In this document: positions 1 to 31,409 of the stretch, piece by piece
Position numbering within the stretch: the first letter of the stretch is position 1
Layout: every line of letters starts with the position of its first letter
Source: a virus
Direction: 5' to 3' (one strand)
IMG/VR virus record: IMGVR_UViG_3300046451_000447
Coordinates: 1 to 51,124 of that record
DNA length: 51,124 bases
Position numbers and translations under genes: made by a program
Notes under the pieces: generated by a model
Databases searched by the model: none
What the model was told of the DNA's origin: nothing
Seen by the model: only the letters and a program-made list of their open reading frames with translations

Positions 1-120
1 TTTGGAGACAGTGTTGCGAAAGTAACGAAATCTTTAGGGTTAGACAAGCTAGCCCCTAAAGATTGCGGTTGTAAAAAACGCCAAGAGTTTTTAAATAAAA
101 TATTACCTTATAAAAAATGA
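1..120 (+). CDS. C-terminal fragment of a small hypothetical phage protein
   Basis: The reading frame is open from base 1 to a TGA at 118-120, so the 5' end lies outside the window and about 39 residues are visible. The end of the protein carries a Cys-Gly-Cys followed by Arg and Gln, then a Lys/Tyr/Pro-rich tail. I recall similar short CGC-containing tails in small proteins of Bacteroidota phages, but no function is known to me. The stop overlaps the next start (ATGA), which suggests translational coupling. Confidence 0.6.
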   Translation, partial: FGDSVAKVTKSLGLDKLAPKDCGCKKRQEFLNKILPYKK

Positions 121-713
121 AAACGTTTAATTTATTTGTAGTTAAATTAGAGAGCAGGCTTAAGGATACAATTACCTCGGATAGCGGATTTGAGCTATAT
201 GTAGACGCAAGGTTTAACGACTTTGATAACCGAACAACTGAAGGACCTGTTGTATGTGTCCCTTTTAAGTTTGATACAGGAGTAGAGGTAGGGGATACCT
301 TATACTTTCATCACTTAGTAGTTTTAGGTGGGGACAATAGCGGTCAAATCTTTACTGAAGACGACAACACTTATATCGTTACCTACGATCCAAACAATGC
401 GATTGGGAACCAAGCCATAGCGTATAAGAGCCAAAAGGACGGTAAGATACGTTGCTTAGCAGGTTGGTGTTTATTAAAATCTGTAGAACAAGAGGAGCTA
501 AAGCTTCAATCAGATCTTATAGAAATAGTAGACCTAACGGAAACCTTACCTACTAAAGGTGAAGTAGCCTATACGTGTAAGTCGGCTGACGAACAGGGGG
601 TTATGCCAGGAGACGTCGTAGGGTTTAAACAGAACAGAGATTATCGTATAACTATAGACGGGGTGGAATATTACCGCACTCGCGCAGAAGATTTAATGTA
701 TGTCGAAATATAA
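117..713 (+). CDS. GroES-like protein, possible phage co-chaperonin
   Basis: This 198-residue protein looks like two GroES-type beta-barrel halves. The last 40 residues (PGDVVGFKQNRDYRITIDG, then YYRTRAEDLMYVEI) follow the GroES pattern of a GDxV strand, a charged turn, a xxIDGxEY strand and a terminal acidic helix ending in a hydrophobic strand. The first half repeats a VxVGDTLYFHH strand pair near residues 57-68. Phages such as T4 carry their own co-chaperonin (gp31) to let host GroEL fold the capsid protein, and that would fit this head-gene cluster. The fold call is from pattern memory, so function is inferred. The start is in an ATGA overlap with the gene before it. Confidence 0.45.
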   Translation: MKTFNLFVVKLESRLKDTITSDSGFELYVDARFNDFDNRTTEGPVVCVPFKFDTGVEVGDTLYFHHLVVLGGDNSGQIFTEDDNTYIVTYDPNNAIGNQAIAYKSQKDGKIRCLAGWCLLKSVEQEELKLQSDLIEIVDLTETLPTKGEVAYTCKSADEQGVMPGDVVGFKQNRDYRITIDGVEYYRTRAEDLMYVEI

Positions 714-990
714 ATTCACTACCGTAAGCGCCTCTAAAAGGCTTATGCAAAGCATGGAGATAGCTATAGACAACATGATTGAAGAGATTAAAAAACCTGT
801 AGATCCAGAGATAAACGGGAGTGCACGTAAAGCGGAACTTCAGTCTATAAAGCAAACCGCCACGGACTGTAAGGAGCTTATTATAGAGAGGCAGAGGTTA
901 GCGCAGATGGTAAAGGATCTTGAGGTTAGCGGGGATATAAAAGACATAAAGGACTACTCTGGAGGATTTGCAGAAAGATTTTCTAAGTAA
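700..990 (+). CDS. Small helical hypothetical protein
   Basis: A 96-residue, charged and mostly helical protein. Residues about 15-80 are rich in Lys/Glu/Ile with heptad-like spacing and could form a coiled coil. No signal peptide, membrane segment or catalytic motif is seen. It overlaps the preceding gene by 14 nt, and its TAA shares a base with the following ATG (TAATG), so it is probably co-translated with both neighbours. I do not recognise the family. Confidence 0.6.
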   Translation: MSKYKFTTVSASKRLMQSMEIAIDNMIEEIKKPVDPEINGSARKAELQSIKQTATDCKELIIERQRLAQMVKDLEVSGDIKDIKDYSGGFAERFSK

Positions 991-1364
991 TGTGTATTGT
1001 TACTGAATATAAAGAATGTAAAGATTGTAAAGAAGTTAAACCTAAAAAGGACTTTACCCCCCATAAAAAATGCGTAGATGGGGTTGAGGGCTCATGTAAA
1101 AAGTGCAGAGCAAAAAGAAAGCGTGAAACTCATCAAATAAAGAAAAAACAATTAGTTTCTCTTGCAGGCGGAAAATGCGAGGTTTGCGGTTATAATAAGT
1201 GTGATTCGGCTTTAGAATTTCACCATCGAGATCCATCACAAAAATCTTTTGCTATTAGCGAGTCTAAAAGATCATTTAAAAACTTATTAGCTGAATCTAA
1301 GAAGTGCGCTCTTTTATGTGCTAATTGCCATAGGGAGCTTCACGCGGGGTTAATTAAGTTGTAA
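990..1364 (+). CDS. HNH endonuclease with N-terminal zinc ribbon
   Basis: A 124-residue protein with two cysteine modules. Residues 10-39 hold C-x2-C and C-x2-C (C10, C13, C36, C39), a likely zinc ribbon. The HNH core has C63/C66, the paired histidines H78-H79 in EFHHRDP, an Asn/Lys-rich helix, and C110-x2-C113-H114, the usual zinc-bound beta-beta-alpha-metal nuclease. Such genes occur in phages as free-standing homing-type nucleases or as packaging helpers near the terminase. The terminase here lies about 2.3 kb downstream, so either role is possible. The start is a TAATG overlap. Confidence 0.85.
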   Translation: MCIVTEYKECKDCKEVKPKKDFTPHKKCVDGVEGSCKKCRAKRKRETHQIKKKQLVSLAGGKCEVCGYNKCDSALEFHHRDPSQKSFAISESKRSFKNLLAESKKCALLCANCHRELHAGLIKL

Positions 1365-1369
1365 CTTTA
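1362..1369 (+). promoter_or_regulatory. Promoter-like box TAACTTTA, 4 nt before the start
   Basis: This is a one-base variant of the Bacteroidota -7 element TAnnTTTG (last base A). It starts inside the HNH gene's stop codon and is followed by exactly 4 nt and the ATG at 1374. The same 4-nt arrangement occurs at four other genes in the window. No clear -33 TTG is seen at the normal distance. It could drive the secreted two-gene unit on its own. Confidence 0.4.
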
Positions 1370-1373
1370 CGGT

Positions 1374-1733
1374 ATGAAGAAATTATTATTTATCTTACTC
1401 TTACTGCCTGTATCTGTTCTATCTCAATGTAATCAGCATGTCTTTAGCTCTGTAGGGGCTGAGAAATGGACAAACTTTCAGTACCAAGACTGCGATGGAG
1501 GGGCTCATTATTTTGGGTTGCCTGCAGGTGGATATACTATAATATATTGCGCCGACATAGGTACTGCATTTGTCCTTAATGGTGATGGGTTTGTTTACCC
1601 ACTACAAGCAGAACATCCTGCATATGCTTCGTGCGTACAGGATGATTGTCCAGGTGATTTAAACAACGACGATGTAATTGATGTACAGGACTTACTATTA
1701 TTTTTAGAAAACTATGGACTTCCATGCGAATAA
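1374..1733 (+). CDS. Secreted protein with C-terminal dockerin-like calcium repeat
   Basis: A 119-residue exported protein. Residues 1-18 form a signal peptide (MKK, a Leu-rich core, then VLSQ) and the mature form begins near QCNQ. The middle (20-90) is Cys- and aromatic-rich with no family I recognise. The last 28 residues hold a dockerin type I-like F-hand: GDLNNDDVIDVQDLLLFL, with Asp/Asn ligands at the usual loop spacing and the following hydrophobic helix. In marine Flavobacteriales such single motifs are common near the C-terminus of secreted proteins. The gene overlaps the T9SS protein that follows by 10 nt, so the two probably act together outside the cytoplasm. Partner and role are unknown. 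Confidence 0.75.
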   Translation: MKKLLFILLLLPVSVLSQCNQHVFSSVGAEKWTNFQYQDCDGGAHYFGLPAGGYTIIYCADIGTAFVLNGDGFVYPLQAEHPAYASCVQDDCPGDLNNDDVIDVQDLLLFLENYGLPCE

Positions 1734-2956
1734 ACCTAATACTTTTATTAGCTTTATGGGCCCCTATTTTATCTGCTCAATGTGATGTAAGCATAAGTAG
1801 CTGGGATGCGGCATCAGGGGATATCGTCATTGAGGCTATCAACAGTGAGAACTGCGGGTGTAATGAGTTTACGTCTGAAGCCAACACCTGCGAGAATAGT
1901 GGGAGTCCTTCCGTAAATAATAATACAACTGTATCTCATATAGTCCTGGGACTGCACGTAGAGGGATTAGATTATAACTGGGGATGCATTTCCGCTACTA
2001 ATCATCCAGGGTGGACGTTTAAAGCGTTTACTTTATTTGGGAATCAAGTCTTAGAGAGCGGAGATACATGGAGTGCTAATGTATATGACTCCCCAAGTAG
2101 TAATGACTGCTGGGCTGAGATACTATCAAATGATACTTTGTGTACCGAATTGGTACTATGGCAGATTAACCTATCTCAAACGGCTACAACAGATAACGGA
2201 GGGTGGGCCGTAAACCCTAACGTTGCGGCTCAGACACAGAGTTACCCTGATGTAGATCTATCTAATAACACTGCGGTTAACTGCGCTCTTCCTGCGTGTG
2301 ACACAGTGTACGTAGATGTAGAAGTTATTGAATACCTTACTGATACTATAGTAGAATATGTAGATGTTGAGTGGATAACAATTGACACTTTTTATATTAC
2401 GCAAGTGGACACATTAGTAGAGTATGTCCAATTACCCCCAGATACTGTACAGGTAGTTGAGTATGTAAATATTATAGAATACCTATACGATACTATTGTA
2501 TTAGTAGAAACAGATACTCTTGTTGAGTATGAGTATATCTACTTAACCGATACGATGTATGTAGAAACGGTTGTATACGAATACATCTATATTTACAATA
2601 CAGACACTATAACTGAATTTGTATCTGAGTCTATATATATTGATTGTAATACTGGAGAGCAGTGCAATCAAACATTCCCGTGTGACGAGGTATCTATTTT
2701 TGCCCCTAATGCCGTTACCCCAAACGGGGATGGCTGGAATGATACGTGGATGGTTATTGCGGACGGAGCTTGTTGGGATCAATGGGAAGTTCGTATTTAC
2801 AACCGATGGGGTGGGCTAGTGTGGATTAGCGCTTCCTCAATGGATGAGTGGGATGCTGACGTAGCTACGGGGGTTTATGTATATACCATAACGGCTCACA
2901 GCGCTGTAAATGTTAATGTGTATCAATTTAACGGAACAATAACGGTATTGTATTAA
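1724..2956 (+). CDS. Secreted T9SS cargo-like protein with gliding-motility-type sorting domain
   Basis: A 410-residue exported protein in three parts. Residues 1-18 are a signal peptide (MRINLILLLALW...LSAQ). Residues 20-190 are a Cys/Trp-rich, probably beta domain. Residues about 190-305 are a low-complexity stalk of Asp-Thr-[ILV]-Val-Glu-Tyr units. Residues 327-410 match the CHU_C / TIGR04131 pattern: APNAVTPNGDGWND, then IYNRWGGLVW, a WDAD turn, GVYVYTI, and a final GTITVLY. Known proteins with this end are exported by the type IX system of Bacteroidota and delivered to the surface. Its presence in a phage genome is unusual. It ends in Tyr instead of the more usual basic residue. Surface display is inferred, not shown. 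Confidence 0.85.
   Translation: MRINLILLLALWAPILSAQCDVSISSWDAASGDIVIEAINSENCGCNEFTSEANTCENSGSPSVNNNTTVSHIVLGLHVEGLDYNWGCISATNHPGWTFKAFTLFGNQVLESGDTWSANVYDSPSSNDCWAEILSNDTLCTELVLWQINLSQTATTDNGGWAVNPNVAAQTQSYPDVDLSNNTAVNCALPACDTVYVDVEVIEYLTDTIVEYVDVEWITIDTFYITQVDTLVEYVQLPPDTVQVVEYVNIIEYLYDTIVLVETDTLVEYEYIYLTDTMYVETVVYEYIYIYNTDTITEFVSESIYIDCNTGEQCNQTFPCDEVSIFAPNAVTPNGDGWNDTWMVIADGACWDQWEVRIYNRWGGLVWISASSMDEWDADVATGVYVYTITAHSAVNVNVYQFNGTITVLY
2293..2640 (+). repeat. Degenerate DT-[ILV]-VEY repeat stalk (coding)
   Basis: This stretch encodes repeated short units such as TDTIVEYV, DTLVEYVQ, DTVQVVEYV, YDTIVLVE and DTLVEYEY. Spacing is irregular (roughly 12-20 residues) and the codons differ between units, so the repeat is old or maintained at the protein level. 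It is extremely rich in Asp, Glu, Tyr, Val and Thr and almost free of Lys and Arg, which suggests an extended, strongly acidic beta spacer. Confidence 0.7.
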
Positions 2957-2978: not shown

Positions 2979-3206
2979 ATGAAAGCTATAAAAAGAGATT
3001 ATAAAAAAGAGTACGCTAAGTACGGATCTAAGCTTAAAGCTAAGCAATATCGTGCAGAGTTAAATCAAATTAATAGAGAAAAAGGGAATTACGGAAACGG
3101 AGATGGACTGGATGAAGCTCATTTTGGAGGAGGTGGAAAAACAAGAAAACAAAAAGCATCTATAAATAGAGCTAACAATAGGCCTAAAAAAAGGAATAGC
3201 GTATAA
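2979..3206 (+). CDS. Small basic phage protein of a widespread unnamed family
   Basis: A 75-residue, strongly basic protein. It begins with Lys/Tyr/Glu-rich KEYAKYGSKLKAKQYRAELN, then has a Gly-rich turn (GDGLDEAHFGGGGK) and ends in a RANNRPKKRN tail. I recall many small proteins of this shape near packaging genes of Bacteroidota phages, with a degenerate HNH-like centre (a [DE]xxH and an Asn-Arg pair). The charge suggests DNA binding, possibly in the virion. A nuclease role is doubtful because the histidine/cysteine set is not complete. Confidence 0.55.
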   Translation: MKAIKRDYKKEYAKYGSKLKAKQYRAELNQINREKGNYGNGDGLDEAHFGGGGKTRKQKASINRANNRPKKRNSV

Positions 3207-3444: not shown

Positions 3445-3633
3445 ATGGCAGAGTATAAATGTGAATGCAGCGATGACGTTGTAGATAAATCAGGTGTAAC
3501 AATAAGATATATTGAGGGGGAAGGGGTAATACATGACGTAAAGTGCGAAAAATGTGAGAAGTACATGGATTTAGCTAACCCAAAATCTGGTGCGCCTGGT
3601 TTTCGATCTAATAGATATGGTCAGACATTTTGA
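3445..3633 (+). CDS. Small zinc-ribbon-like hypothetical protein
   Basis: A 62-residue protein starting MAEYKCECSD. It has C-x-C near the start and C-x2-C (CEKCEKY) in the centre, a likely single zinc site. A longer frame opens at 3349, but its first 32 residues lie inside the lipoprotein gene and look like out-of-frame translation. The ATG at 3445, four bases after the lipoprotein's stop, is therefore preferred. The TGA overlaps the TTG start proposed for the terminase. Role unknown. Confidence 0.6.
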   Translation: MAEYKCECSDDVVDKSGVTIRYIEGEGVIHDVKCEKCEKYMDLANPKSGAPGFRSNRYGQTF

Positions 3634-5747
3634 GTATACTCCTAGATGTTAAAGATTATGAAGACCCAGCTGTTAAGATTTGTCCCAACGGTACGGAAGG
3701 TGAGCTTATCGAACTCGGTGGGCTACTCATTTGTCTTCCAAAAAGGCCTCCGAAGAAAGAAATTTCAGGATATAAAGAACCAAACTCTATGCAAATGTGG
3801 GGAAGGGTACTTATGCCGCAGGAATTGTCTCGTATTCGTTCTATGGATGAGTGGGCGGAAATGCCACGGGAGTTTAGAGCGAGGTTTCGTCCATATATCG
3901 AGGAAGAGTTTAGGCGTAGGCGTGAAGGTTTTTGGTTTTATAACAACGGTACAGCTACATATATTACGGGGCGTCACTACATGATGATACAGTGGACCAA
4001 GATGGACATTGGTTACCCGTACTTCCTGAACTTTCAAAGAGATATCTTCTTGCATTTAGCTGCGTGTGAAATCGATCCTAGATGTATAGGGCAGCTATAT
4101 ACTAAGTGTCGTCGTAGTGGGTACACAAATATGTGCTCATCTGTACTTGTAGACGAAGGGACTCAAGTAAAAGATAAACTTATGGGTATACAGTCTAAGA
4201 CTGGTAAAGACGCCCAAGAAAATATATTTATGAAGAAGGTAGTCTTTATGTTTAGAAACTATCCTTTCTTTTTTAAACCTATTCAAGACGGTACAACTAA
4301 TCCTCGTATGGAGTTAGCTTTTAGGGAGCCGTCGAAAAGAATAACCAAGAAGAATAAAACCTCTCAAATGGGGGAAGCTTTGAATACGGTTATCAACTGG
4401 AAAAACACAACAAACAATGCATATGACGGTGAAAAGCTACACCTGTTGTATTTAGATGAAGCAGGAAAATGGGAAAGACCTACAGACATAAGAGACGCTT
4501 GGAGGATTCAGAGGACTTGTTTGATCGTCGGAAGAAAAATCGTGGGGAAGGCAATGGTCGGAAGCACGGTAAATCCAATGGACAAAGGAGGGAGTCAGTA
4601 CAAGGATCTATGGGAGGACTCAGATCCTTTGGAGAGGAACGCGAATGGGAGGACTAGAACTGGTCTATATAGACTTTTTATCCCTGCATATAACTCTTTA
4701 GAAGGATTCTTTGATAAGTTTGGCTACCCTGTAGTTGACGACCCTATAGAGACTATAGAAGGTATAGACAATGAGTATATCTATACAGGAGCTAAGACAT
4801 TCTTAAAGAATGAAAGAGACTCTTTAAAAAACGATGCGTCGGAATTAAACGAGGTGGTAAGGCAGTTCCCGTTTACCGAAGATGAGGCCTTTAGAGATAG
4901 TATAGAGGGGAGTGTATTTAATATCGGTCAGATTTACGAGCAGATAGAACATAATGACGAGCTTTTCCCAAACCCCGTTGTAGCGGGAAATTTTGTATGG
5001 AAAGGGGGGGTAAAAGATACTGAGGTAGTATTTAGCCCAAATGCTCAAGGTAGATTTAAAATTGCTTGGATGCCTCCTCCTGACTTTAGAAACCAAAAGA
5101 AAACAGAAAGAGGTAAGCGAGTAGCCCCTCATTCAGACTTTGGCGTAGGAGGGGTTGACTCATATGACCTTGACGCTACCGTAGATGGCAGAGGATCTAA
5201 AGGTTCTTTGCATTTATATAACAAGTTCCATATGGAGCACCCTTGTAACATGTTTGTTTTGGAGTATGCCTCAAGGCCACCTTTAGCTAAAATATTCTAC
5301 GAAGACGTTTTAATGGCCGCTGTATTTTATGGTTACCCTATATTAATAGAGAATAATAAATATGGTATAGCGAGGCACTTTGAAGCTAGAGGGTATGACG
5401 GGTACCTAATGGATAGACCTAAACACTTAGTTAGCGCTAGTGGGATGAAGTCTAAAACAAAAGGTATACCATCTAACTCTCAAGACGTTATCCAGGCTCA
5501 CGCACACGCTATAGAATCCTTTATACATGACCATGTAGGAGTGAATAGAGAAACGGGAGATGTTGGGAAAATGTATTTTAATAAAACGCTAGAGGATTGG
5601 ATAGGTTACAAAATAGACGATAGAACTAAATATGACCTTACAATTAGCTCTGGATTGGCTCTACTAGGAGCGCAAAAAGCCAAGCCAAAAAAGACTTCTG
5701 ACTTGTCTGAAAAACGATTCTTTAGGAGATATCAAGTAATCGGATGA
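3630..5747 (+). CDS. terL: Terminase large subunit
   Basis: A 705-residue ATPase-nuclease that pumps DNA into the prohead. A Walker A-like element lies at residues 159-166 (KCRRSGYT), unusually without the final GKT. Walker B is HLLYLDEAG (271-279). The C-terminal RNase H-like nuclease begins near residue 510 with the acidic strand FGVGGVDSYD. The first possible start is TTG at 3630, overlapping the preceding TGA. The first in-frame ATG is only at 3789, but the N-terminal stretch between them (ICPNGTEGELIELGG, then CLPKRPPK) resembles what I remember of related terminases, so the TTG is kept. The portal gene follows directly, as is normal. Confidence 0.88.
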   Translation: MSILLDVKDYEDPAVKICPNGTEGELIELGGLLICLPKRPPKKEISGYKEPNSMQMWGRVLMPQELSRIRSMDEWAEMPREFRARFRPYIEEEFRRRREGFWFYNNGTATYITGRHYMMIQWTKMDIGYPYFLNFQRDIFLHLAACEIDPRCIGQLYTKCRRSGYTNMCSSVLVDEGTQVKDKLMGIQSKTGKDAQENIFMKKVVFMFRNYPFFFKPIQDGTTNPRMELAFREPSKRITKKNKTSQMGEALNTVINWKNTTNNAYDGEKLHLLYLDEAGKWERPTDIRDAWRIQRTCLIVGRKIVGKAMVGSTVNPMDKGGSQYKDLWEDSDPLERNANGRTRTGLYRLFIPAYNSLEGFFDKFGYPVVDDPIETIEGIDNEYIYTGAKTFLKNERDSLKNDASELNEVVRQFPFTEDEAFRDSIEGSVFNIGQIYEQIEHNDELFPNPVVAGNFVWKGGVKDTEVVFSPNAQGRFKIAWMPPPDFRNQKKTERGKRVAPHSDFGVGGVDSYDLDATVDGRGSKGSLHLYNKFHMEHPCNMFVLEYASRPPLAKIFYEDVLMAAVFYGYPILIENNKYGIARHFEARGYDGYLMDRPKHLVSASGMKSKTKGIPSNSQDVIQAHAHAIESFIHDHVGVNRETGDVGKMYFNKTLEDWIGYKIDDRTKYDLTISSGLALLGAQKAKPKKTSDLSEKRFFRRYQVIG

Positions 5748-5752
5748 TTTAC

Positions 5753-5760
5753 TATATTTG
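5753..5760 (+). promoter_or_regulatory. Promoter-like box TATATTTG before the portal gene
   Basis: A perfect match to the Bacteroidota -7 element TAnnTTTG in the short gap between terminase and portal, 26 nt before the portal ATG. No TTG is seen 17-23 nt upstream. It could give a separate transcript for portal and downstream head genes. Confidence 0.45.
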
Positions 5761-5786
5761 CTAAATAGAAATACCATATCTTAAGG

Positions 5787-8225
5787 ATGTATAATAACGA
5801 TAATAAAAGTAAGCAGGGTTTCCCCGATCCATTAGAATCTACGGAATTAAAACAGGGGAAAGAATATGGTATTCAGTATGCTAAAGCTATTGAGTCTCAA
5901 TGGGGGAAAACTACGGATGACTCTTCTTTGGTAGGCAAAAGGAATAAAACCTTTGAAAAAGACCGAGATTACGCTATTGGAGTTCAGGATACAAGTATAT
6001 ATAAACAACTATTAAGCTCTCTCAATCCAAATAAAGCGGACGGAGCTTTGTTGAATATGGATTACACCCCAGTTCCTATCCTACCTAAATTTGTAAGAAT
6101 TGTAGTTAATAAGATACTGTCTGTAAATCCCTATCCTAATTTAGAAGCAGTAGACCCATTGTCTTCTTCTGAAAAGAATGAAAAAAAGAAGAAGATTTTA
6201 ATGCAAGTTGAATCTAAGGGTAAGCTTAAAGAGCTAAAAGATAAGACTGGTGTTGTTTTAGATATGGATCCAGATTCCATTCCAGACACTCCAGAAGAAG
6301 CAGAAATTTTATTCGACACTAATATTAAAACAGACGGAGAGATATCTGCTCAGCTAGGGGCGGAACTTACTCTCACTTGGAATAACTTTGTAGACAACAC
6401 TTTCCGTAGGTGTGTAAACGACTTAGCTACCCTAGGTATGTCTGTAGTAAAAAGATCTAACGATCCCAACGAAGGCATTAAAACATCCTACGTAGATCCG
6501 TGTATGTTTATACATAGCTACACAGAAGACCCTAATTTTGAAGACCTTATATACGCTGGGCATATAAAAAAGATCTCTATACAAGAGTTAAAGCGTTTGG
6601 CTGGAGAGGAGTTGAATGAGGAGGATTATAAAAAGATTGCTGAAAAATCTAAAGGAAGAAATGGAAATGATTCTAATAAGTATAACAAATCTAACTATAG
6701 TCACGCTTTAGGTAAAACCTCATTTGGCTATGACGACTATATGGTTGAAGTTTTAGATTTTGAGTTTATTTCTGTTGATTGTATTCACTTTGAAGAAAAA
6801 GAAAACAAACACGGTAACACAGGGTTTTATTTTAAAGGCTTTGAAGCTCAACCTAATAAGAACAGCGTTTTCGAGCGCACTCCTCATAAATTAGAGGTGT
6901 CTACTGTTTATGGAGGCAGCTATGTATTGGGTTGTGATTATCTATTTGGATATGGCAAAACTAAGAACGTACCTAAAAACATACACGATATATCTAAAGC
7001 TACATTATCTTACTCTGTAACGGCGACTAATATTCGTAACATGATGCCTAAATCTATGGTAAATAGCTGTGTAGGCTTTGCCGATATGCTACAGCTCACT
7101 CACTTAAAGATACAGCAGGCTATAGCAAAAGCTAAGCCAGATGGTTTGATCATAGATATAGAGGGTTTAGAAAATGTACAGTTAGGGAAAGGTGGGGAGT
7201 TACAACCTTTAGACCTTCACGATATATACGAGCAGACAGGTGTTTTCTACTACAGGAGTAAGAACCCCGAAGGTGGATTTCAAAACCCTCCTGTTAGAGA
7301 AATAAGCAACAGCATAAGAAACATTAATGAACTTGTAGGTTTATACAACCATTACTTAGGTTTAATAAGAGACACAACGGGTATTAATGAAGCAATGGAC
7401 GCATCTTCCCCTAAAGGTGATGCTTTAGTTGGTGTTCAAAATCAGGCTATAGCTGCGGGTAACAACGCTATATATGATATAACAAATGCCGCTATGGTTT
7501 TGTTTAAAAAAGTATGTGAGGATATAGTTAAATGTATTCAAATTATACCTCCTGAATCCGTTCTATATAAAATATACGAGAACGCTATCGGAGACACGAA
7601 TATGGAGGCTTTAGCTTCCTTCAGAGACCTTCCTATGTATAACTTCGGGGTTGTTGTTGTAAAGGATATGGAGGAGAAAGATAAGGCCTACCTAGAGCAA
7701 AACATCCAGATGGCTCTCCAACAGCAAGAGTTAGATTTAGAAGACGCTATAGCCGTTAGAGGTTTAAAAGATATTAATCAAGCGGAAAGGCTTCTTGTTG
7801 TTAGGCGTAAAAAAAGAATGGCTATGAAGCAGCAGATGGCTCAGCAGAGCTCTGAGCAGCAAGCTAAAATGCAGGGTCAAATAGCTCAGCAGGCACAACA
7901 AGCTAAAATGGCTGAAATGCAAGCGCAGGGTCAAATTGACACTCAAAAAATTCAAATGCAAGCGCAGGTCGATATGAAGATGGCGCAAATGAGGCATGAG
8001 TTTACTAAAGAAATTGAGATGCTTAAAGCTCAGGCTACGCTTGGCTTTAAAGAAGATGACAAAGAGTTTAAAGAAAAGCTTGAGGTTTTAAAAGAGACCC
8101 GTAAAGATGACAGGCTAGACCAACAGACTTCAGACCAAAGTAAACTTATATCCCAAAGGCAAGGCAAAAGAGAAGAGCTACCTGAAGGGTCAAACAAACT
8201 AATTAATGCATTATTAAACGAATAA
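5787..8225 (+). CDS. Portal protein
   Basis: An 812-residue protein forming the ring through which DNA enters and leaves the head. It lies right after the terminase and has the expected size for portals of short-tailed Bacteroidota phages. The N-terminal half is alpha/beta (residues 90-430, containing NKILSVNPYPNLEAVDP and the helical stretch DMLQLTHLKIQQAIAK). Around residue 530 there is LGLIRDTTGINEAMDASSPK, a loop type common in portals. The last 180 residues are a Gln/Met/Lys-rich coiled coil (AQQAQQAKMAEMQAQ), which is typical of portal barrels. The nearest promoter-like box is at 5753. Confidence 0.85.
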   Translation: MYNNDNKSKQGFPDPLESTELKQGKEYGIQYAKAIESQWGKTTDDSSLVGKRNKTFEKDRDYAIGVQDTSIYKQLLSSLNPNKADGALLNMDYTPVPILPKFVRIVVNKILSVNPYPNLEAVDPLSSSEKNEKKKKILMQVESKGKLKELKDKTGVVLDMDPDSIPDTPEEAEILFDTNIKTDGEISAQLGAELTLTWNNFVDNTFRRCVNDLATLGMSVVKRSNDPNEGIKTSYVDPCMFIHSYTEDPNFEDLIYAGHIKKISIQELKRLAGEELNEEDYKKIAEKSKGRNGNDSNKYNKSNYSHALGKTSFGYDDYMVEVLDFEFISVDCIHFEEKENKHGNTGFYFKGFEAQPNKNSVFERTPHKLEVSTVYGGSYVLGCDYLFGYGKTKNVPKNIHDISKATLSYSVTATNIRNMMPKSMVNSCVGFADMLQLTHLKIQQAIAKAKPDGLIIDIEGLENVQLGKGGELQPLDLHDIYEQTGVFYYRSKNPEGGFQNPPVREISNSIRNINELVGLYNHYLGLIRDTTGINEAMDASSPKGDALVGVQNQAIAAGNNAIYDITNAAMVLFKKVCEDIVKCIQIIPPESVLYKIYENAIGDTNMEALASFRDLPMYNFGVVVVKDMEEKDKAYLEQNIQMALQQQELDLEDAIAVRGLKDINQAERLLVVRRKKRMAMKQQMAQQSSEQQAKMQGQIAQQAQQAKMAEMQAQGQIDTQKIQMQAQVDMKMAQMRHEFTKEIEMLKAQATLGFKEDDKEFKEKLEVLKETRKDDRLDQQTSDQSKLISQRQGKREELPEGSNKLINALLNE

Positions 8226-8226
8226 T

Positions 8227-8721
8227 ATGGCTAGTTCAGTAAATTTAGATACATCAGATGTCTTAAATATAACGTGCAGGAAAGGGGACACCTTTTCTAT
8301 TACGCTTACTCTAAAAGATTCTGCGGGTACTGCCCTTACGTTATCTACTAGTGAATATACTTTTTTAATGCAGGTTAAATCTACGAGAGTAGCTAAAAGA
8401 GGAAGACCTAGTATATCAACTTTAATTTTAGGGACGCCTAATGCCGCAGCAAAAGATCAGGTCCGAGTTAAGTCTAAGTCTAGGATTACGCCACCACCTG
8501 TATCGTCTGGTGGAAAAACATTTGAAACCCCTACTGTTGACGATAGCGGAAATGTAACTATTGAAGCTTCTGCTGAAACTATGAGTAAAGTTCCTTCTGG
8601 AAGTTACTCTTACGACCTTCAGTACATCCTTCCTAACGCTTCTGGTTTGGATACTCACAGGACTGTTTTAAGGGGAAAGTTTTCTGTTAACGCAGATATA
8701 ACGGAAGCATTTGAAAGATAA
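8227..8721 (+). CDS. Small beta-rich virion protein (BppU/Ig-like pattern)
   Basis: A 164-residue protein: an ITCRKGDTFSITLTL strand pair, a FLMQV strand, a basic loop, then GSYSYDLQYIL and a closing GKFSVNADIT strand. This order (GDTF...MQV...YDLQ...G.F.V..DIT) is one I associate with Ig-like or baseplate-upper-protein N-terminal domains in phage virions. The exact place in the particle is unknown. Its TAA overlaps the next ATG. Confidence 0.55.
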   Translation: MASSVNLDTSDVLNITCRKGDTFSITLTLKDSAGTALTLSTSEYTFLMQVKSTRVAKRGRPSISTLILGTPNAAAKDQVRVKSKSRITPPPVSSGGKTFETPTVDDSGNVTIEASAETMSKVPSGSYSYDLQYILPNASGLDTHRTVLRGKFSVNADITEAFER

Positions 8722-8891
8722 TGAGTGTATCTGTAAACACAACACCTGGTAATACTGTTAGCGTCTCTGTTAATGGTAACACATCTGTTAGTTTTATAAA
8801 AAAAAATTCTTTCGTTTCCGCAACTTTACCTTCTGCATCTTCAACAATATTAACTGAAAAATCCCTTAAATCAATACAAGTGGTTGTTTAA
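8721..8891 (+). CDS. 56-residue Ser/Val-rich small protein
   Basis: A short gene beginning in a TAATG overlap with the preceding virion gene and ending at a TAA at 8889-8891. The product is rich in Ser, Val, Thr and Asn (MSVSVNTTPGNTVSVSVNGN) in alternating beta-like order. The coupling and composition suggest it completes or decorates the product of the gene before it. I know no family. Confidence 0.5.
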   Translation: MSVSVNTTPGNTVSVSVNGNTSVSFIKKNSFVSATLPSASSTILTEKSLKSIQVVV

Positions 8892-8902
8892 CAACATGTA
8901 AA

Positions 8903-9223
8903 ATGAAAGCCTGTAAATGCGAACATAAAGAAAATGAATACAAGAAAGGAGGTAAGACTCCTGCTTGGACACGCAAAGCAGGAAAGAATCCAAAAGGCGG
9001 ATTAAACGCTAAGGGTGTAGCTTCTTACAGGAAGGCAAATCCAGGCAGTAAGCTTAAGATGGCTGTAACAGGGAAAGTTAAAGCGGGGTCTAAGGCTGCA
9101 AAGAGACGTAAATCTTTTTGCGCTAGAATGAGTGGAATGAAAGGACCTATGAAAAAGCCAAATGGCAAACCTACAAGGAAGGCTTTGTCTTTACGTAAAT
9201 GGCGTTGTAGAAAAAAGAAGTAA
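8903..9223 (+). CDS. DUF6321-type basic phage protein
   Basis: A 106-residue Lys/Arg/Gly-rich protein. The sequence runs KKGGKTPAWTRKAGKNPKGG, LNAKGVASYRKANPGSKL, then RRKSFCARMSGMKGPMKKP and a final TRKALSLRKWRC. This strongly conserved order is that of the DUF6321 family found in many marine phages (family recalled, not searched). The charge indicates nucleic-acid contact, perhaps inside the head. The role is unproven. TAATG overlap with the next gene. Confidence 0.7.
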   Translation: MKACKCEHKENEYKKGGKTPAWTRKAGKNPKGGLNAKGVASYRKANPGSKLKMAVTGKVKAGSKAAKRRKSFCARMSGMKGPMKKPNGKPTRKALSLRKWRCRKKK

Positions 9224-9591
9224 TGAAAGCAATTAAAAAAGTAATTAAGAAATTTAATCACGGAGGTAAGCATAGCGAAAAAGAACCTAGGGTTAGCCTA
9301 TCCTCCACCAATTCGAGCACTTCGGAGGCCACTACGAGAACAAATAGGAGAGGCAAAAAAAAGACAACTACATCTTCCAGTAACACTAGAGTTAGCACTC
9401 ATAAATATCCTGATGGAGAGAAACCAAATACCACTACTACATCTGTAAACACCGTGGTTTTTAAGCCAAAGATTTTTGGATCAGGGACGAGAAGGAGAGG
9501 CACAAGCACTACTGGCACTGAAGTTCTTAACGAGGACGGGACTCAAAGAAGCCATACTTACAGTAAGAAAAAAGTAAAAAGACCTAAATAA
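9223..9591 (+). CDS. Basic Ser/Thr-rich hypothetical protein
   Basis: A 122-residue low-complexity protein. It opens with a Lys-rich MKAIKKVIKKFNHGGK segment, continues with long Ser/Thr runs between Arg/Lys clusters, and ends in KKKVKRPK. It is likely disordered and may bind DNA or the capsid. Both ends overlap neighbours in TAATG, so it sits in a tightly coupled run of three basic proteins (8903, 9223, 9591). Confidence 0.55.
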   Translation: MKAIKKVIKKFNHGGKHSEKEPRVSLSSTNSSTSEATTRTNRRGKKKTTTSSSNTRVSTHKYPDGEKPNTTTTSVNTVVFKPKIFGSGTRRRGTSTTGTEVLNEDGTQRSHTYSKKKVKRPK

Positions 9592-9773
9592 TGAAACCCG
9601 TTAAAAAAAATACTAAGCTAAAGGTATCTAGTAAGAAGATAGAAGTAGCCCCTCCCAAGGGCTACCATTGGATGGAAGAGAAGGGCAGGTACTACCTCAT
9701 GGAAGGTGAGTATAAACCACATCCTGGAGCTATTGAAAAGGCCTTATTTAAAACAACTACCCATCCAAAATAA
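9591..9773 (+). CDS. Small conserved-looking basic protein
   Basis: A 60-residue protein with a Lys-rich start and a compact centre containing APPKGYHWMEEKGRYYLMEG, a pattern I recall in small proteins of marine phages but cannot name. It ends the run of basic proteins before a promoter-like box at 9791. Starts in a TAATG overlap. Confidence 0.55.
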   Translation: MKPVKKNTKLKVSSKKIEVAPPKGYHWMEEKGRYYLMEGEYKPHPGAIEKALFKTTTHPK

Positions 9774-9790
9774 GGCAACGTAATAATAGT

Positions 9791-9798
9791 TATATTTG
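9791..9798 (+). promoter_or_regulatory. Promoter-like box TATATTTG before the small virion genes
   Basis: A perfect TAnnTTTG element in the 44-nt gap between 9773 and the ATG at 9818, leaving 19 nt to the start. No TTG is found at the usual -33 distance. It would transcribe the paralogous virion cassette from 9818. Confidence 0.5.
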
Positions 9799-9817
9799 CA
9801 TATAAATAATTCTTAAA

Positions 9818-10231
9818 ATGGCTACGATCTCAGCGACAATAAATCTTACTAGTCCAGATATTACTGGCGACCCTTTAAATTTAAGTAAAAGAACTAACTT
9901 AAATAAAGCAGGTACTGCTACTGGTTTAGACCAGTTTACAGGCGTTACTACCGTAGTATATGCAACTGCTCAAACGGCAAAACAAATTGTTGATGCTGGA
10001 GATTATGTAGGCACAACAGCTTCTCATAAGGTATATATTAAAAATTCTGCTATTGGGTCTAGCGATTTTGTTACTGTTGAGTTAGGAGGTGATAATGTTT
10101 TAATGGGGAGACTTTACCCAGGAGATTGGTGTTTCTTCCCATACGACGGAACTTTAGACGTAGATATAGATACTAGTGCAGCTAATATGAAGGTTGAATA
10201 TGCTGTTTTTTCTCAATCAACCGCATCATAA
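9818..10231 (+). CDS. Virion-type protein, paralogue 1 of a four-gene cassette
   Basis: A 137-residue beta-rich protein and the first of four neighbouring paralogues. Shared elements in order are: an N-terminal strand with LTSPDITGDPLNLS, a TKAGTATGLDQ-type segment, HKVYIKN, DFVTVELG, and MGRLYPGDWCFFPYDGTLD before a final YAVFSQSTAS. The GRLYPGDW-[FP]-P motif is the best marker of the group. It lies between portal and scaffold, where auxiliary head proteins are often found. Capsid decoration or head fibre is a reasonable guess, not shown. Confidence 0.6.
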   Translation: MATISATINLTSPDITGDPLNLSKRTNLNKAGTATGLDQFTGVTTVVYATAQTAKQIVDAGDYVGTTASHKVYIKNSAIGSSDFVTVELGGDNVLMGRLYPGDWCFFPYDGTLDVDIDTSAANMKVEYAVFSQSTAS

Positions 10232-22902: not shown

Positions 22903-23780
22903 TGAGTATGAACAAAGTAAAACTATCCCAGATTATAAATGACTTTATAATTACCTCTGATGGAGATGACTATGCTAATAACGCATCGGATTCTGCAATA
23001 AGAAACTTTGCGCTTAGAGGGATTAGAGAGATAGGATTTGATTTAGGTAAAAAGATTAAATCTATAAAAAGGACTGTAGATACTACTAACGATACAGTAG
23101 CGTTACCAGACGACTTTGTAGATTTACTCAAATTAGGTATTGTTGGGGCGGATGGAGTAATCCATGTACTCAACCAAAACAAACATATTAACTACTCTGG
23201 ACAAATAAAGCAGGATACAACTGCAGCCACAACGAATGCAGCTGGCACTGTTATAGATGATGACACTACAAGTGTAAAAGATAGCCAGGATGGACCTTTA
23301 AATATTGAAGCGAACGAAATATTAAATAGAGAAGCATCTAAAAGCTCTACTACAGGCTCTACGGCTTCAGGAGACCAAGATTTCTACCTATTTCAGAACT
23401 ATCTCCACCAGGGGGGTCTAGGAGGCCTATACGGCGTAGGAGGGGGTCATGCGGTAGGTCAGTATAGATTGAACCTAGATCAGGACAGAATAGAGCTTAA
23501 AATGAGCGGTTCGGGTTCTGAGGTGGTATTAGAGTATATTGCTGACGAAGCTAGATCTACCGATCCAGAGGTGCATGTGTATGCAGAAGAGGCCTTACGT
23601 TGCTATATATACTATAAAATAGTAGAAAGGAAGTCTAGTGTGCCTGCAAACGAAAAGGCTAGAGCTAGGGTGGAATATTATAACGAGAGAAGAAAAGCTA
23701 ATTCTAGATTAAGCAACTTTACTAAAGAAGAAGCATTAAGTACTATACGTAGAAACTTTATGCAGGCACCTAAGTACTAA
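22902..23780 (+). CDS. Probable tail tubular/ring protein
   Basis: A 292-residue protein. The N-terminal half has SAIRNFALRGIREIGFDLGK, a helix, and VALPDDFVDLLKLGIVGADG, the [LV]PDDFVxLxKxG signature I associate with T7 gp11-like or crAss-type tail tubular/ring proteins. The C-terminal half has VLEYIADEARSTDPEVHVYAE and a helical tail that ends FMQAPKY. The middle (200-240) is a Gly/His-rich loop. It is co-transcribed with the 2121-residue protein, with a TAATG overlap. Confidence 0.65.
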   Translation: MSMNKVKLSQIINDFIITSDGDDYANNASDSAIRNFALRGIREIGFDLGKKIKSIKRTVDTTNDTVALPDDFVDLLKLGIVGADGVIHVLNQNKHINYSGQIKQDTTAATTNAAGTVIDDDTTSVKDSQDGPLNIEANEILNREASKSSTTGSTASGDQDFYLFQNYLHQGGLGGLYGVGGGHAVGQYRLNLDQDRIELKMSGSGSEVVLEYIADEARSTDPEVHVYAEEALRCYIYYKIVERKSSVPANEKARARVEYYNERRKANSRLSNFTKEEALSTIRRNFMQAPKY

Positions 23781-29700: not shown

Positions 29701-30145
29701 TGGGGGGCTAACAGAAGCAGAGGCTATACAAGAGATTGTCCCTGAAGAGTTCTTCAGTTCTTACATCGCAGCAAATCCGTTCCTTCAAGCGTCTTTACAA
29801 ACTATTCTACAAGGTATAGCTACCTCTAATGGCGTAGAGGTTTCAGGGGTAACAGGATCGATGTTAGATGTCTGGGCAGGTAGTCAAACATCTAATGGAA
29901 ATGGAGCATACAATTCGGTAGCAGAGGCTGTAGCTGCGGAAGGCATATCTACTAATCAAATTCAAGATTTTTTACAACAAATTGAATTAGTAAGCGCATC
30001 GCTCCCATCTGGAGGGTTTGATATTCTAAAATGGAAGTCTGATATTAATGGAGATGGTCAGATTGGGTCGGCAGATTTACTTTTCTTTTTAGCTACTTTC
30101 GGTGAACAACAATTATTCCCTGGGGATATAACATGGCTAATTTAA
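23780..30145 (+). CDS. Giant tail stabilisation (muzzle-like) protein with C-terminal dockerin repeat
   Basis: A 2121-residue beta-rich tail protein. The start IPIRLDKSSDFKLVPK...ML is typical of phage stabilisation/tubular-B proteins. So are FQFAYQFISKDGVESAISPY, IKNIRILARQFNNPELVVLD and a KAQSVVDNRLMYGNYLEGFD segment (residues 220-375). The later block GCDNNPESVVQVGAYVYFAH, RVYRFNPANG, EISEQGMASYFR (about residues 1550-1610) is the usual end of that family. After it come about 500 extra residues, mostly helical. The last 35 residues hold a dockerin-like F-hand, SDINGDGQIGSADLLFFLATF. The protein probably forms the tail tip and may contact the surface. Confidence 0.78.
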   Translation: MAIDKIIPIRLDKSSDFKLVPKTSMVDALNMLITENESSGDNGSTGNLGVLKNIKGNDPISYLSGHNIAAGNAKIIGSVTDTKLKIVYFFVWHTIASEHGVYAYDQIGKLPISGGTKGKIVRIHKSALYAFPEHGYVKGNIIYTSQTRLDDSEIKPGAKKDFEKDAILYFTDNTNEPRKINVYQAMLGEDSSYELDDKIDFITACPKTPLTPIEFEFMADSSRTTSNFKSGPGFQFAYQFISKDGVESAISPYSDIAFSPGIINQGGLTVVDHSLHNVCILKIPNAGAEIKNIRILARQFNNPELVVLDEVSNTEIQENWVLAARAYYFYNDRIVRGVSNNEVNKQFDNLPRKAQAQSVVDNRLMYGNYLEGFDNVKTQCSASVSFENRGVELIDLKVRLIPAISEQQWAYDVEYGAGNIDTTDNLGQSLNQSSGARNKSAGYIIDCQEMPIDIAAGSVYNITVQISPNNNFHVYQATDSYHQSRHRGAFQQGLEYQIDYSMLPEAGNWSGEGSINQASPYGGEEGQWVNNEGNDNPFYGHQGLGRSGAEWIGDRIPNPILAGEGMYSTSNAEFWGIPYSGDNFGVTGNSDIGNAGTGPDAPEWKTIMGASLSSGETSKKVNFGTSAGNPLIIKGGQLEFSCTIEALIDIDSVGRDALTSAIAQALSGQDITWEGYNAFEVVNDEVEPLYSLDLGGDIFDGKQIPEGNYLSKLIVGAVEDEPGESTIYKAPLGHFIVNKADVTFSLERDAPFADIDPKYEMVRLCISSIENVETYSVFKKKFYNSPWFAFSKDYLTGSGSVFNQNDFFADTSYGFAGASGTFNQTLFQYEEQNNLEDWDYIFNNIVDDFNPNDLDISGDFGVTGVEIAGLETSFLAESMGTPVGVDAAPYAALLANVNQLQEQRFLGYLDFTQDGVFNQFFRFNKSQYQNKPRLSGVKELSPFSVVDGEGGMGGNLSHNLENSPGSVSLSSHPRRMRFNERLVNSELTGSTQDQVIRTIRVAGPEFTGTINSRYIPSLDSLVQNNVGGGGAIQQLQSTRTFIPLMQGSPIEGLNTGDDFQFPYSFYSTQAVDWPFVIDFNQKHSYIELLGVPFLFIPGGGEAVFDPNSSVDRTFKSNADHDFGIIYYDERGRHGFVNHLKTVHVPGYSSAERLGAIHGRSVINLSFSHDPPKWAHYYKLAYTKNTSVQNFIQYSAGGAFREDFEGSGAEVSSTLIYVSLNYLQESSMSYVAEWGARNPQGGLSMFKAIDGVSQKLRVISAYTDGENRDFFYNYEFDIVNMVLLGDSENPLTTTPETHPEMQGEFVILKDNSNADGFNWASVFDGSHKWGNNCIVELFTPARDRDEDTRFYYEIGDTYNINNPETDNPTHSVSSVVLDKGDVWWRRVPVNLREYDGGEFTDLILNGDPDDSLTSNFKPYYLETETASDLFKADATLIGRPNIILEDAIETIREASITYSGQSNPNSSKINYSSFNLTLSNFKGLQEEFGDINYMCNMEGDVFVIQSDRCTLVPASKTLFSDVQGSSTVAASKSPLGQERVFAGRAGCDNNPESVVQVGAYVYFAHKNLGRVYRFNPANGIQEISEQGMASYFRGIFKDAMDKSVTAGNFINYDDVRVVGGFDPVNEEYLLTVLDPETYGVTEGTGGGGFPEGGGEVIEDLTTINSLEQQLKNVMTAFLTATQPDGVTPAFDITTLPQELQAFYNTPLTDGRDITAFDGNENDVFDAGEIVSMSDIQVGVQESLNNFLVSELDITLEAMVEIINRADVTTTDRVVLYVNTMLQRMVNIDHQLKQGVVKLNDSRKSRESKHNQSALDASVPGFENPYWKNTYDFNVQVEEGWSGTSDLLVEAYEASGGDFTDPALLEAITALQAAQDAWGEESGYTNKPSRIQTLKQLWLSAEYHTLLQKVFSGYNVSGDDKRVGVNEISSNTPMYSWGVESTGEYLTPFTLANNLGGVLEEFKIYLRGLKDARMSIGGLTEAEAIQEIVPEEFFSSYIAANPFLQASLQTILQGIATSNGVEVSGVTGSMLDVWAGSQTSNGNGAYNSVAEAVAAEGISTNQIQDFLQQIELVSASLPSGGFDILKWKSDINGDGQIGSADLLFFLATFGEQQLFPGDITWLI

Positions 30146-30161
30146 TTATAAATAGATAGTT

Positions 30162-31409
30162 ATGGCAAATTACACAGGGAAAACAATAGCGTTCTCACAT
30201 AAAGGTGGGTTCTGGAAGACTAGATATAGTTATACCCCGACATGTTATGCCGTTGTAGATAACGTTATGATCTCTACTAATAAGACATCCCTTGATACTT
30301 CTACTAATTCAACCGCTTTTTTCTGGGAGCACGAAGTAAACGCTAAGCGTAATGTATTTTACGAGACGCAATATAAATCATCGTTAACGTTGGTTTCTAA
30401 CCAAGACCCTAGCGCTGTAAAGCTATTTAAGGCCTTATCTCTAGAGAGTAACTCTAAAGATTGGGTTGGAACGGCAGCTACGAATATTAACCCTGCAGGA
30501 TCCCCTCAAAATGAGTTACAATTAGGTAGTATTAAGGGATTTGTAACTAAAGAAGGAAATCAATACAGTGAGTTACCTAAATCTTTAAATAACTCTAACA
30601 GCAATTTAGACTATGTGTGCCAGCTGGATTCAATTATAGACAGCTCTATGCTTACTGGATTGGATGAGCTTTCAGCAGATCTTAATAATGATGGAGTTGT
30701 TGACGTTTCTGATATTCTTATATTTTTAGGACAATTCGGAGGCCTTGATCCGTTGGGTATTGCTGATTTAGATTTAGATGGAACAGTAACAACTAATGAC
30801 CTCCTTTTATTAACAGCGCAATTCGGAACTTTTACTAGCAATGCTGATTCTTCAAATTTATTTTTTGATCTTAGTCAACCACTTCTTTCTCTAGTTGCTT
30901 CGGGTTGGGCAGCCTCAGTCTTGTCTTCTTCCTTAAACACTCCTCTTTTAGGTGGGGGCGGAAGTCAAGCTGTTTTTGTAAGCGCACTGGAAGATGTTTA
31001 TACATTAAGTTATTCTTCCAATGCGTGGAATTTTGTGAATTTTGTTTCTGAAACCACAGTCTTTAACGTAAATAGTCCGTATGTATATGTACACTCGTAC
31101 ACTAGTGACGGGAATGTAATTTTAGGGGTTAGCGGGGATGTTACATTGGACGCAATTACAGCTTTAATAAGTTTCACAAATAGTCTAGGTCCTGAATGGG
31201 ATACAATACAATTATATTCTATTACCTCGCCAGACATAAACGGTGACCCCATGAGAGGGCAATATCTACATCTCCATTTAGAGAACGATAGCACCACCCC
31301 TGTAGAGACATATGCTATAAACGTAGACTTTGAGAATACTAAGCTAGACGGGAGTAAAGGTAGCACTCAAAAGAAGCCTAAACAAAAGGCTTCCCCTAGT
31401 TCAAAGTAA
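30162..31409 (+). CDS. Tail-associated protein with paired dockerin-like repeats
   Basis: A 415-residue protein. Residues 1-140 carry TGKTIAFSHKGGFWKTRYSY and a Trp/His-rich beta region seen next to stabilisation proteins in related phages (recalled). Residues 172-222 are two F-hands in tandem, SADLNNDGVVDVSDILIFLG and DLDLDGTVTTNDLLLLTAQF, the classic two-repeat dockerin length. The second half (240-390) is beta-rich, ending in a Lys/Ser-rich tail. Placed right after the giant tail protein, it probably sits at the tail tip. The dockerin pair should bind two calcium ions; a cohesin partner is not seen. Confidence 0.65.
   Translation: MANYTGKTIAFSHKGGFWKTRYSYTPTCYAVVDNVMISTNKTSLDTSTNSTAFFWEHEVNAKRNVFYETQYKSSLTLVSNQDPSAVKLFKALSLESNSKDWVGTAATNINPAGSPQNELQLGSIKGFVTKEGNQYSELPKSLNNSNSNLDYVCQLDSIIDSSMLTGLDELSADLNNDGVVDVSDILIFLGQFGGLDPLGIADLDLDGTVTTNDLLLLTAQFGTFTSNADSSNLFFDLSQPLLSLVASGWAASVLSSSLNTPLLGGGGSQAVFVSALEDVYTLSYSSNAWNFVNFVSETTVFNVNSPYVYVHSYTSDGNVILGVSGDVTLDAITALISFTNSLGPEWDTIQLYSITSPDINGDPMRGQYLHLHLENDSTTPVETYAINVDFENTKLDGSKGSTQKKPKQKASPSSK

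Follow-up and report, generated by a model that had tools for sequence, protein, structure and literature searches.

A phage gene ending in a type B T9SS sorting domain is half of a two-gene cassette that moves between unrelated phages

The cargo gene described here is a phage gene that ends in a type B sorting domain of the type IX secretion system (T9SS). It lies in the window, by which we mean the whole 51,124-nucleotide stretch of viral DNA that was analysed (IMG/VR record IMGVR_UViG_3300046451_000447), and it belongs to a cassette of two genes, dock119 first and then the cargo gene with its head, Asp/Thr/Tyr-rich stalk and type B domain (Table 1). The family is under purifying selection and is moving between unrelated phages. 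Our reading, which we regard as modestly probable, is that the product of the cargo gene is a phage-specific T9SS cargo and that the two genes form a mobile cassette for surface display, which uses the T9SS of the host together with a borrowed carrier of the PorP/SprF family. An initial annotation of this DNA had already proposed that a phage gene product is addressed to the host T9SS and so predicted to reach the cell surface, and this agrees with the profile matches and with the phage origin of the DNA on the left. It had missed the two-gene cassette, the phage specificity and the exchange among unrelated phages.

Table 1. Features of the cassette, its flanks and the virion genes in the window
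Feature	Position	Strand	Description
GroES-like co-chaperonin, left flank	117..713	+	phrog_13932, E = 1.7e-42
HNH endonuclease, left flank	990..1364	+	phrog_2255, E = 5.3e-33
Putative promoter box TAACTTTA	1362..1369	+	Close to Bacteroidota -7 box TAnnTTTG; 4 nt before dock119 start codon
dock119	1374..1733	+	Predicted secreted protein of 119 aa; putative signal peptide, six invariant Cys and, at the C-terminus, a dockerin-like Ca-loop motif (DLNNDDVIDVQDLLLFLENYG)
T9SS type B cargo	1724..2956	+	410 aa; PF13585 and TIGR04131 matches; 79 loci with full or partial relatives
Putative signal peptide of cargo (residues 1-18)	1724..1777	+	Cleavage predicted before QC; not a lipobox; sequence read directly
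Cargo head domain (residues 19-188)	1778..2287	+	Cys-rich, predicted beta-rich, no known family
Cargo stalk (residues 189-315)	2288..2668	+	Repetitive Asp-Thr/Tyr/Val/Glu, without Lys or Arg; length varies among relatives
Type B T9SS C-terminal sorting domain (residues 316-410)	2669..2953	+	HMMs, Foldseek; four sequence types family-wide
Small phage gene, right flank	2979..3206	+	phrog_6437, E = 3.2e-11; not a PorP/SprF carrier
Terminase large subunit, right flank	3630..5747	+	phrog_6681, E = 1.1e-199
Dockerin-like module, C-terminus of 2121-aa virion protein (23780-30145)	30035..30109	+	dock119 profile E = 8.7e-4; lead only
Dockerin-like module in muzzle-like virion protein (30162-31409)	30669..30740	+	dock119 profile E = 3.8e-5; lead only

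Two profiles match the C-terminus of the cargo above their cut-offs, which upholds the CHU_C/TIGR04131 domain that the initial annotation had named from its motifs. PF13585 (CHU_C) covers residues 327-394 (E = 4.4e-15, 56 bits against a cut-off of 27), and TIGR04131 covers residues 327-380 at 35.2 bits, a margin of only 0.2 bits over its cut-off of 35. No other CHU_C match occurs in the 51-kb record; Por_Secre_tail, the type A signal, has no match in the window, and the signal of the cargo is of type B. The sorting domain sits at the extreme C-terminus (residues about 316-410 of 410) and has a four-strand beta fold, with strands at residues 351-359, 365-369, 383-393 and 399-408 in the AlphaFold model. 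This model is confident for the sorting domain only (block mean pLDDT 81-91 over residues 320-410); the head is modelled with moderate confidence and the stalk is unordered, with pLDDT below 35 over most of its length. Against the PDB, Foldseek matched the modelled domain to 8glk_D, a T9SS NucA-substrate chain (probability 1.00, TM over target 0.74), at 13% identity and with a modest E of 0.011. At the other end of the protein, residues 1-18 (MRINLILLLALWAPILSA^QC) show by eye the n, h and c regions of a signal peptide, and the model predicts a helix at residues 3-17. A chance reading frame is excluded: some 90 viral contigs have members of the family, and their dN/dS is roughly 0.05-0.3.

The head is well conserved, with a mean column identity of 65% and 35 invariant columns in the family alignment (A2). 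It has no sequence match in the PDB, and the fold search returned nothing at E <= 0.001. The idea of the head as a cohesin that would pair with the dockerin-like dock119 found no support in these two results.

The reading frame of dock119 overlaps the cargo gene by 10 nt in the window. Relatives of dock119 were found at 61 viral loci in the IMG/VR scan, and the cargo gene adjoins them in every case where the contig reaches far enough. The order dock119-cargo with an overlap of 10-13 nt was kept at 38 loci, the reversed order with a gap of 1-2 nt at 11, and an extra gene stands between the two at eight; some diverged cargo loci are without dock119. The six invariant Cys and the dockerin-like tail are features of the family alignment (A3), where most members have a single loop-helix motif and not duplicated Ca-binding loops. 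No Pfam match was obtained for dock119, the cut-off of PF00404 (Dockerin type I) not being reached; its structure model is of low confidence (pLDDT 57.6), and the protein is itself without a sorting domain. Upstream of dock119, an exact TAnnTTTG occurs within 40 nt in 8 of 24 non-redundant loci, compared to 0.6 expected from shuffles, and a loose form precedes 11 of the window's 57 other genes. Because other genes in the window also show such boxes, the box says little about a promoter at dock119.

Several relatives carry additional genes around the cassette. In one phage lineage, a gene with BspA-type leucine-rich repeats (DUF285) is inserted between dock119 and the cargo gene (L011, 7515-10001; L081, 8658-9944; the DUF285 HMM match was computed on the L011 copy), and sequences reading as GroEL and GroES stand just before dock119 in the same two contigs (4835-6672 and 5947-7814, respectively). 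Beside the cargo gene of L045, a secreted M43 metallopeptidase (8692-10008) has a dockerin-like module, an apparent type A T9SS tail and an N-terminus that resembles dock119 (STQHVFSSV). In L028, a contig of another gene-content group, a tRNA-Arg (2022-2098) ends directly 5' of dock119.

The full-protein scan of IMG/VR gave 89 relatives, of which 79 loci were kept, and the scan with the head alignment gave 91 viral loci. Among 84,980 species genomes of bacteria and archaea, the same head scan had a single match, which lies in a Pseudomonadales MAG on a contig of 61.6 kb. By eye, this contig carries genes for GroEL and for an M15-type endolysin-like protein amid repetitive structural-looking genes, and we regard it as phage DNA that was misbinned. 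The head domain appears to be phage-specific at the depth of these scans, which rely on short conserved patterns that distant bacterial homologues could escape. Exactly one CHU_C domain was present in 37 of the 40 carrier records, including those of 100-199 kb, and in the other three the cargo gene is cut by the contig end; 7 of 35 carrier records also encode a T9SS signal of type A. Neither the head nor dock119 had a match in isolate phages. CHU_C-level matches were found at several places in each of two uncultured phages of about 640 kb (L212 and L213; LR745206.1 and LR756502.1), with no head domain or dock119 in the 8-kb stretch around one such match in each. Two carriers encode an outer-membrane-like protein of about 350 aa together with a thioredoxin-like secreted protein (L019, 2180-6584; L030, 1993-3768), and L019 has a further protein, of 712 aa, with a T9SS tail of type A.

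The carrier contigs fall into at least 10 gene-content groups with few or no other genes in common. These groups were taken from a gene-sharing matrix, single-linkage grouping having been dropped as it chained unrelated phages. Among them are three lineages whose terminases are of the phrog_6681 type, and others show T4-type hallmarks (terminase phrog_2, baseplate wedge phrog_219). On the head-domain tree, 21 changes of phage group are needed, compared to a minimum of 11, and the starred branches force more than one change for several groups. Selection has meanwhile kept the protein: dN/dS was about 0.05-0.2 in most comparisons and rose to 0.31 in the stalk.

The sorting domain has a history of its own. 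Between the window and phages with a 96-98% identical terminase, the heads are about 80% identical but the sorting domains no more than 37-39%; in phages with terminases 79-83% identical to that of the window, the sorting domain stays at 83%. In the L031/L015 pair, dN is 0.03 in the head and 0.73 in the sorting domain. Three of the four sorting-domain types cross gene-content groups. Therefore, the sorting domain has been exchanged as a unit.

The window terminase is 31-40% identical to those of podophages of Flavobacterium, Cellulophaga, Maribacter and Tenacibaculum, and 49% identical to one uncultured record. Since the nearest isolate terminases are those of Flavobacteriaceae phages, the host of the window phage is most likely a T9SS-bearing member of the Bacteroidota. 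The cassette carriers are all uncultivated, and marine or freshwater Bacteroidota are suggested as their hosts by the hosts of the nearest isolates rather than by sample metadata.

We infer export, surface display, carrier borrowing and the purpose of the cargo from sequence, which supports display on the infected cell well. During infection, dock119 and the cargo would be co-translated and exported by Sec, as the two putative signal peptides and the gene overlap of 10-13 nt suggest. In the periplasm, the host T9SS would recognize the type B domain of the cargo and push the protein through the outer membrane; the HMM and fold matches point to this recognition, which the literature demonstrates for host proteins. 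Type B substrates are mostly adhesins and need a cognate carrier of the PorP/SprF family, usually encoded next door; a porP/sprF gene directly downstream is usual but not obligatory, and orphan substrates exist (PMC12618676). The gene directly downstream of the cargo is not porP/sprF but the phrog_6437 gene, and PF11751 (PorP/SprF) had no match in 35 carrier records, in a search whose control was silent too. Because a type B cargo needs a carrier and none is recognisable beside this one, we suggest that the cargo borrows a PorP/SprF-family carrier of the host and behaves as an orphan substrate. The carrier would stay bound and anchor the cargo, as type B substrates stay bound to theirs at the cell surface (PMC9143113, PMC12635249). 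In some relatives, an outer-membrane-like phage protein of about 345 aa, for which no Pfam match was obtained, could be a divergent PorP/SprF carrier. Exchange of sorting domains between phages may then re-match the cargo to the carriers of a given host.

Once outside, the cargo would coat the infected cell, its head kept at a distance from the surface by a flexible, acidic stalk whose length varies. The changed surface may keep competing phages from adsorbing or divert them, whether the cargo masks it or takes up the carriers of adhesins that the host exports through its T9SS. Such exclusion is plausible because T9SS and gliding (gld/spr) mutations make Flavobacterium columnare resistant to phage (PMC9233685). 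Taken alone, it is perhaps the likeliest benefit of the cargo, at somewhat less than an even chance. A point against it is that many exclusion genes are early ones, while the cassette of the window stands among late or structural genes.

The architecture of the cargo, with a beta-rich head, a repetitive stalk of variable length and a surface sorting domain, is also like that of the known and predicted type B substrates, which are adhesins (PMC12618676). The cargo might then be an adhesin by which infected or surviving cells, or debris bearing progeny, stick to particles, algae or neighbours, with better transmission or host fitness as the result. The BspA-type repeats in the cassette and the adjoining secreted M43 peptidase of some relatives would fit such a role. 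However, these virulent-looking phages leave little time for a benefit of this kind and the head matches no known adhesin or carbohydrate-binding family, and we consider attachment a rather unlikely purpose.

It is less probable still that the head is not the agent at all and that the cargo is a decoy, saturating the PorP/SprF shuttles and removing host adhesins such as SprB on which flavophages depend. Exchange of the sorting domains as units would suit a decoy, as would the resistance of gld/spr mutants to phage (PMC9233685) and the behaviour of type B carriers, which are cognate and become limiting when the cargo is overproduced (PMC12618676). The head, however, is more conserved than a mere decoy needs, with omega of 0.05-0.17 and its 35 invariant columns.

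Phages carry other Ig-like decorations, and the gene stands among structural genes in the window and in several relatives. It could be a component of the virion, for example a decoration or a receptor-binding fibre, that resembles a sorting domain by accident or uses this likeness on the particle. We think this very improbable, because the protein has an apparent signal peptide, many conserved Cys and a T9SS domain above two curated cut-offs, and its position relative to the virion genes is not fixed across phage groups.

The initial annotation had left room for the left 3 kb being host DNA joined by misassembly, and this part of the window proved to be phage DNA. The cargo stop codon is followed after 674 bases by the terminase gene, close to the 0.7 kb first estimated, and after it come the portal (phrog_6547) and a virion protein (phrog_13704) genes. 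A contig from a different metagenome (L002) matched the first 5,979 bases of the window, across the junction, with one mismatch. Further left, L002 has genes that read by eye as structural and lysis genes, and a 159-aa protein of L008, homologous to one of these left-hand genes, has a DUF5675 match. Although CHU_C proteins are common in Bacteroidota hosts, a misassembly or host contamination of viral bins has next to no chance of being the explanation, given this independent contig, the order GroES-u96-(HNH)-dock119-cargo-TerL kept in many contigs, a head that is virtually absent from bacterial genomes and the single CHU_C per carrier contig.

Dockerin-like modules were also picked up by the dock119 profile in two virion proteins of the window (Table 1), and we treat both as leads only. 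The muzzle-like protein matches crAss_MUZ_C above cut-off (6e-9) and Dockerin_1 below cut-off; only one relative of this protein was found for tracking the virion modules against the cassette. A further virion protein of 2208 aa (34463-41089) has a DUF3293 domain (1e-11) and a weak match to S-adenosylmethionine lyase, which is unusual in a giant virion protein. In its widest form, our surface-display reading would be that unrelated Bacteroidota phage lineages share a dedicated, phage-specific display module, which works through the T9SS of the host and a PorP/SprF carrier borrowed from it, has exchangeable sorting domains fitted to carriers and takes over the surface against competing phages, while dock119 and the dockerin-like modules of the virion tie the displayed head to a binding partner. 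We put this forward tentatively, as a doubtful extension.

The initial annotation knew of no described system of this kind, a view that does not hold, because phage-encoded T9SS cargo was already published as a concept in 2019-2020. Cryophage encodes type A T9SS cargo, for which superinfection exclusion was proposed in 2020 (PMC7468147). Like the cassette, it has phage proteins with a C-terminal T9SS signal, and we also count as shared their variation between close relatives and the proposal that the host system secretes them, perhaps with superinfection exclusion as the result. The Cryophage signals are of type A, on an endoglucanase, a GH39 protein and a PA14-domain protein, whereas the cassette has a type B signal, a phage-specific head-and-stalk protein, a constant partner gene and many unrelated phages as carriers. 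In BACON-bearing gut phage contigs, proteins with T9SS sorting domains were noted upstream of the head genes in 2019 (PMC6949934), a placement like that in the window; this was a passing mention, with BACON instead of the cassette head, and it reported neither a partner gene nor an analysis of the family. SprB and other type B substrates of Flavobacterium johnsoniae (PMC12618676, PMC9143113, PMC12635249) have a Sec signal, which the cargo has by eye only, and share with it a type B C-terminal domain, and their repetitive adhesin-like body, bound to the surface through a PorP/SprF carrier, is counted as shared with the predicted cargo. They are, however, bacterial genes, usually with porP/sprF directly downstream, whereas the phage cassette has dock119 instead. 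Full-length homologues are already present, unnamed, in viral databases. One of them, A0A7S9STS8 (Virus NIOZ-UU157), a family member of 406 aa, aligns with the cargo over its full length (35% identity, Foldseek E = 9.7e-28). It is annotated automatically only, as a "gliding motility-associated C-terminal domain-containing protein", and a functional description of it was not found in the open-licence literature searched. In the same literature, we found no description of the head-stalk-type B family, its partner gene, its restriction to phages, its movement or the sorting-domain swaps.

Bacteroidota build their outer surface mainly through the T9SS, and it is this surface that flavophages depend on. 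A phage-specific cargo shared so widely would mean that phages, too, make regular use of the system. The cassette is a concrete candidate for the remodelling of infected cells by Bacteroidota phages, and it gives some 90 entry points into viral contigs that otherwise have no annotation. It is also a natural probe of how sorting domains choose their PorP/SprF carriers.
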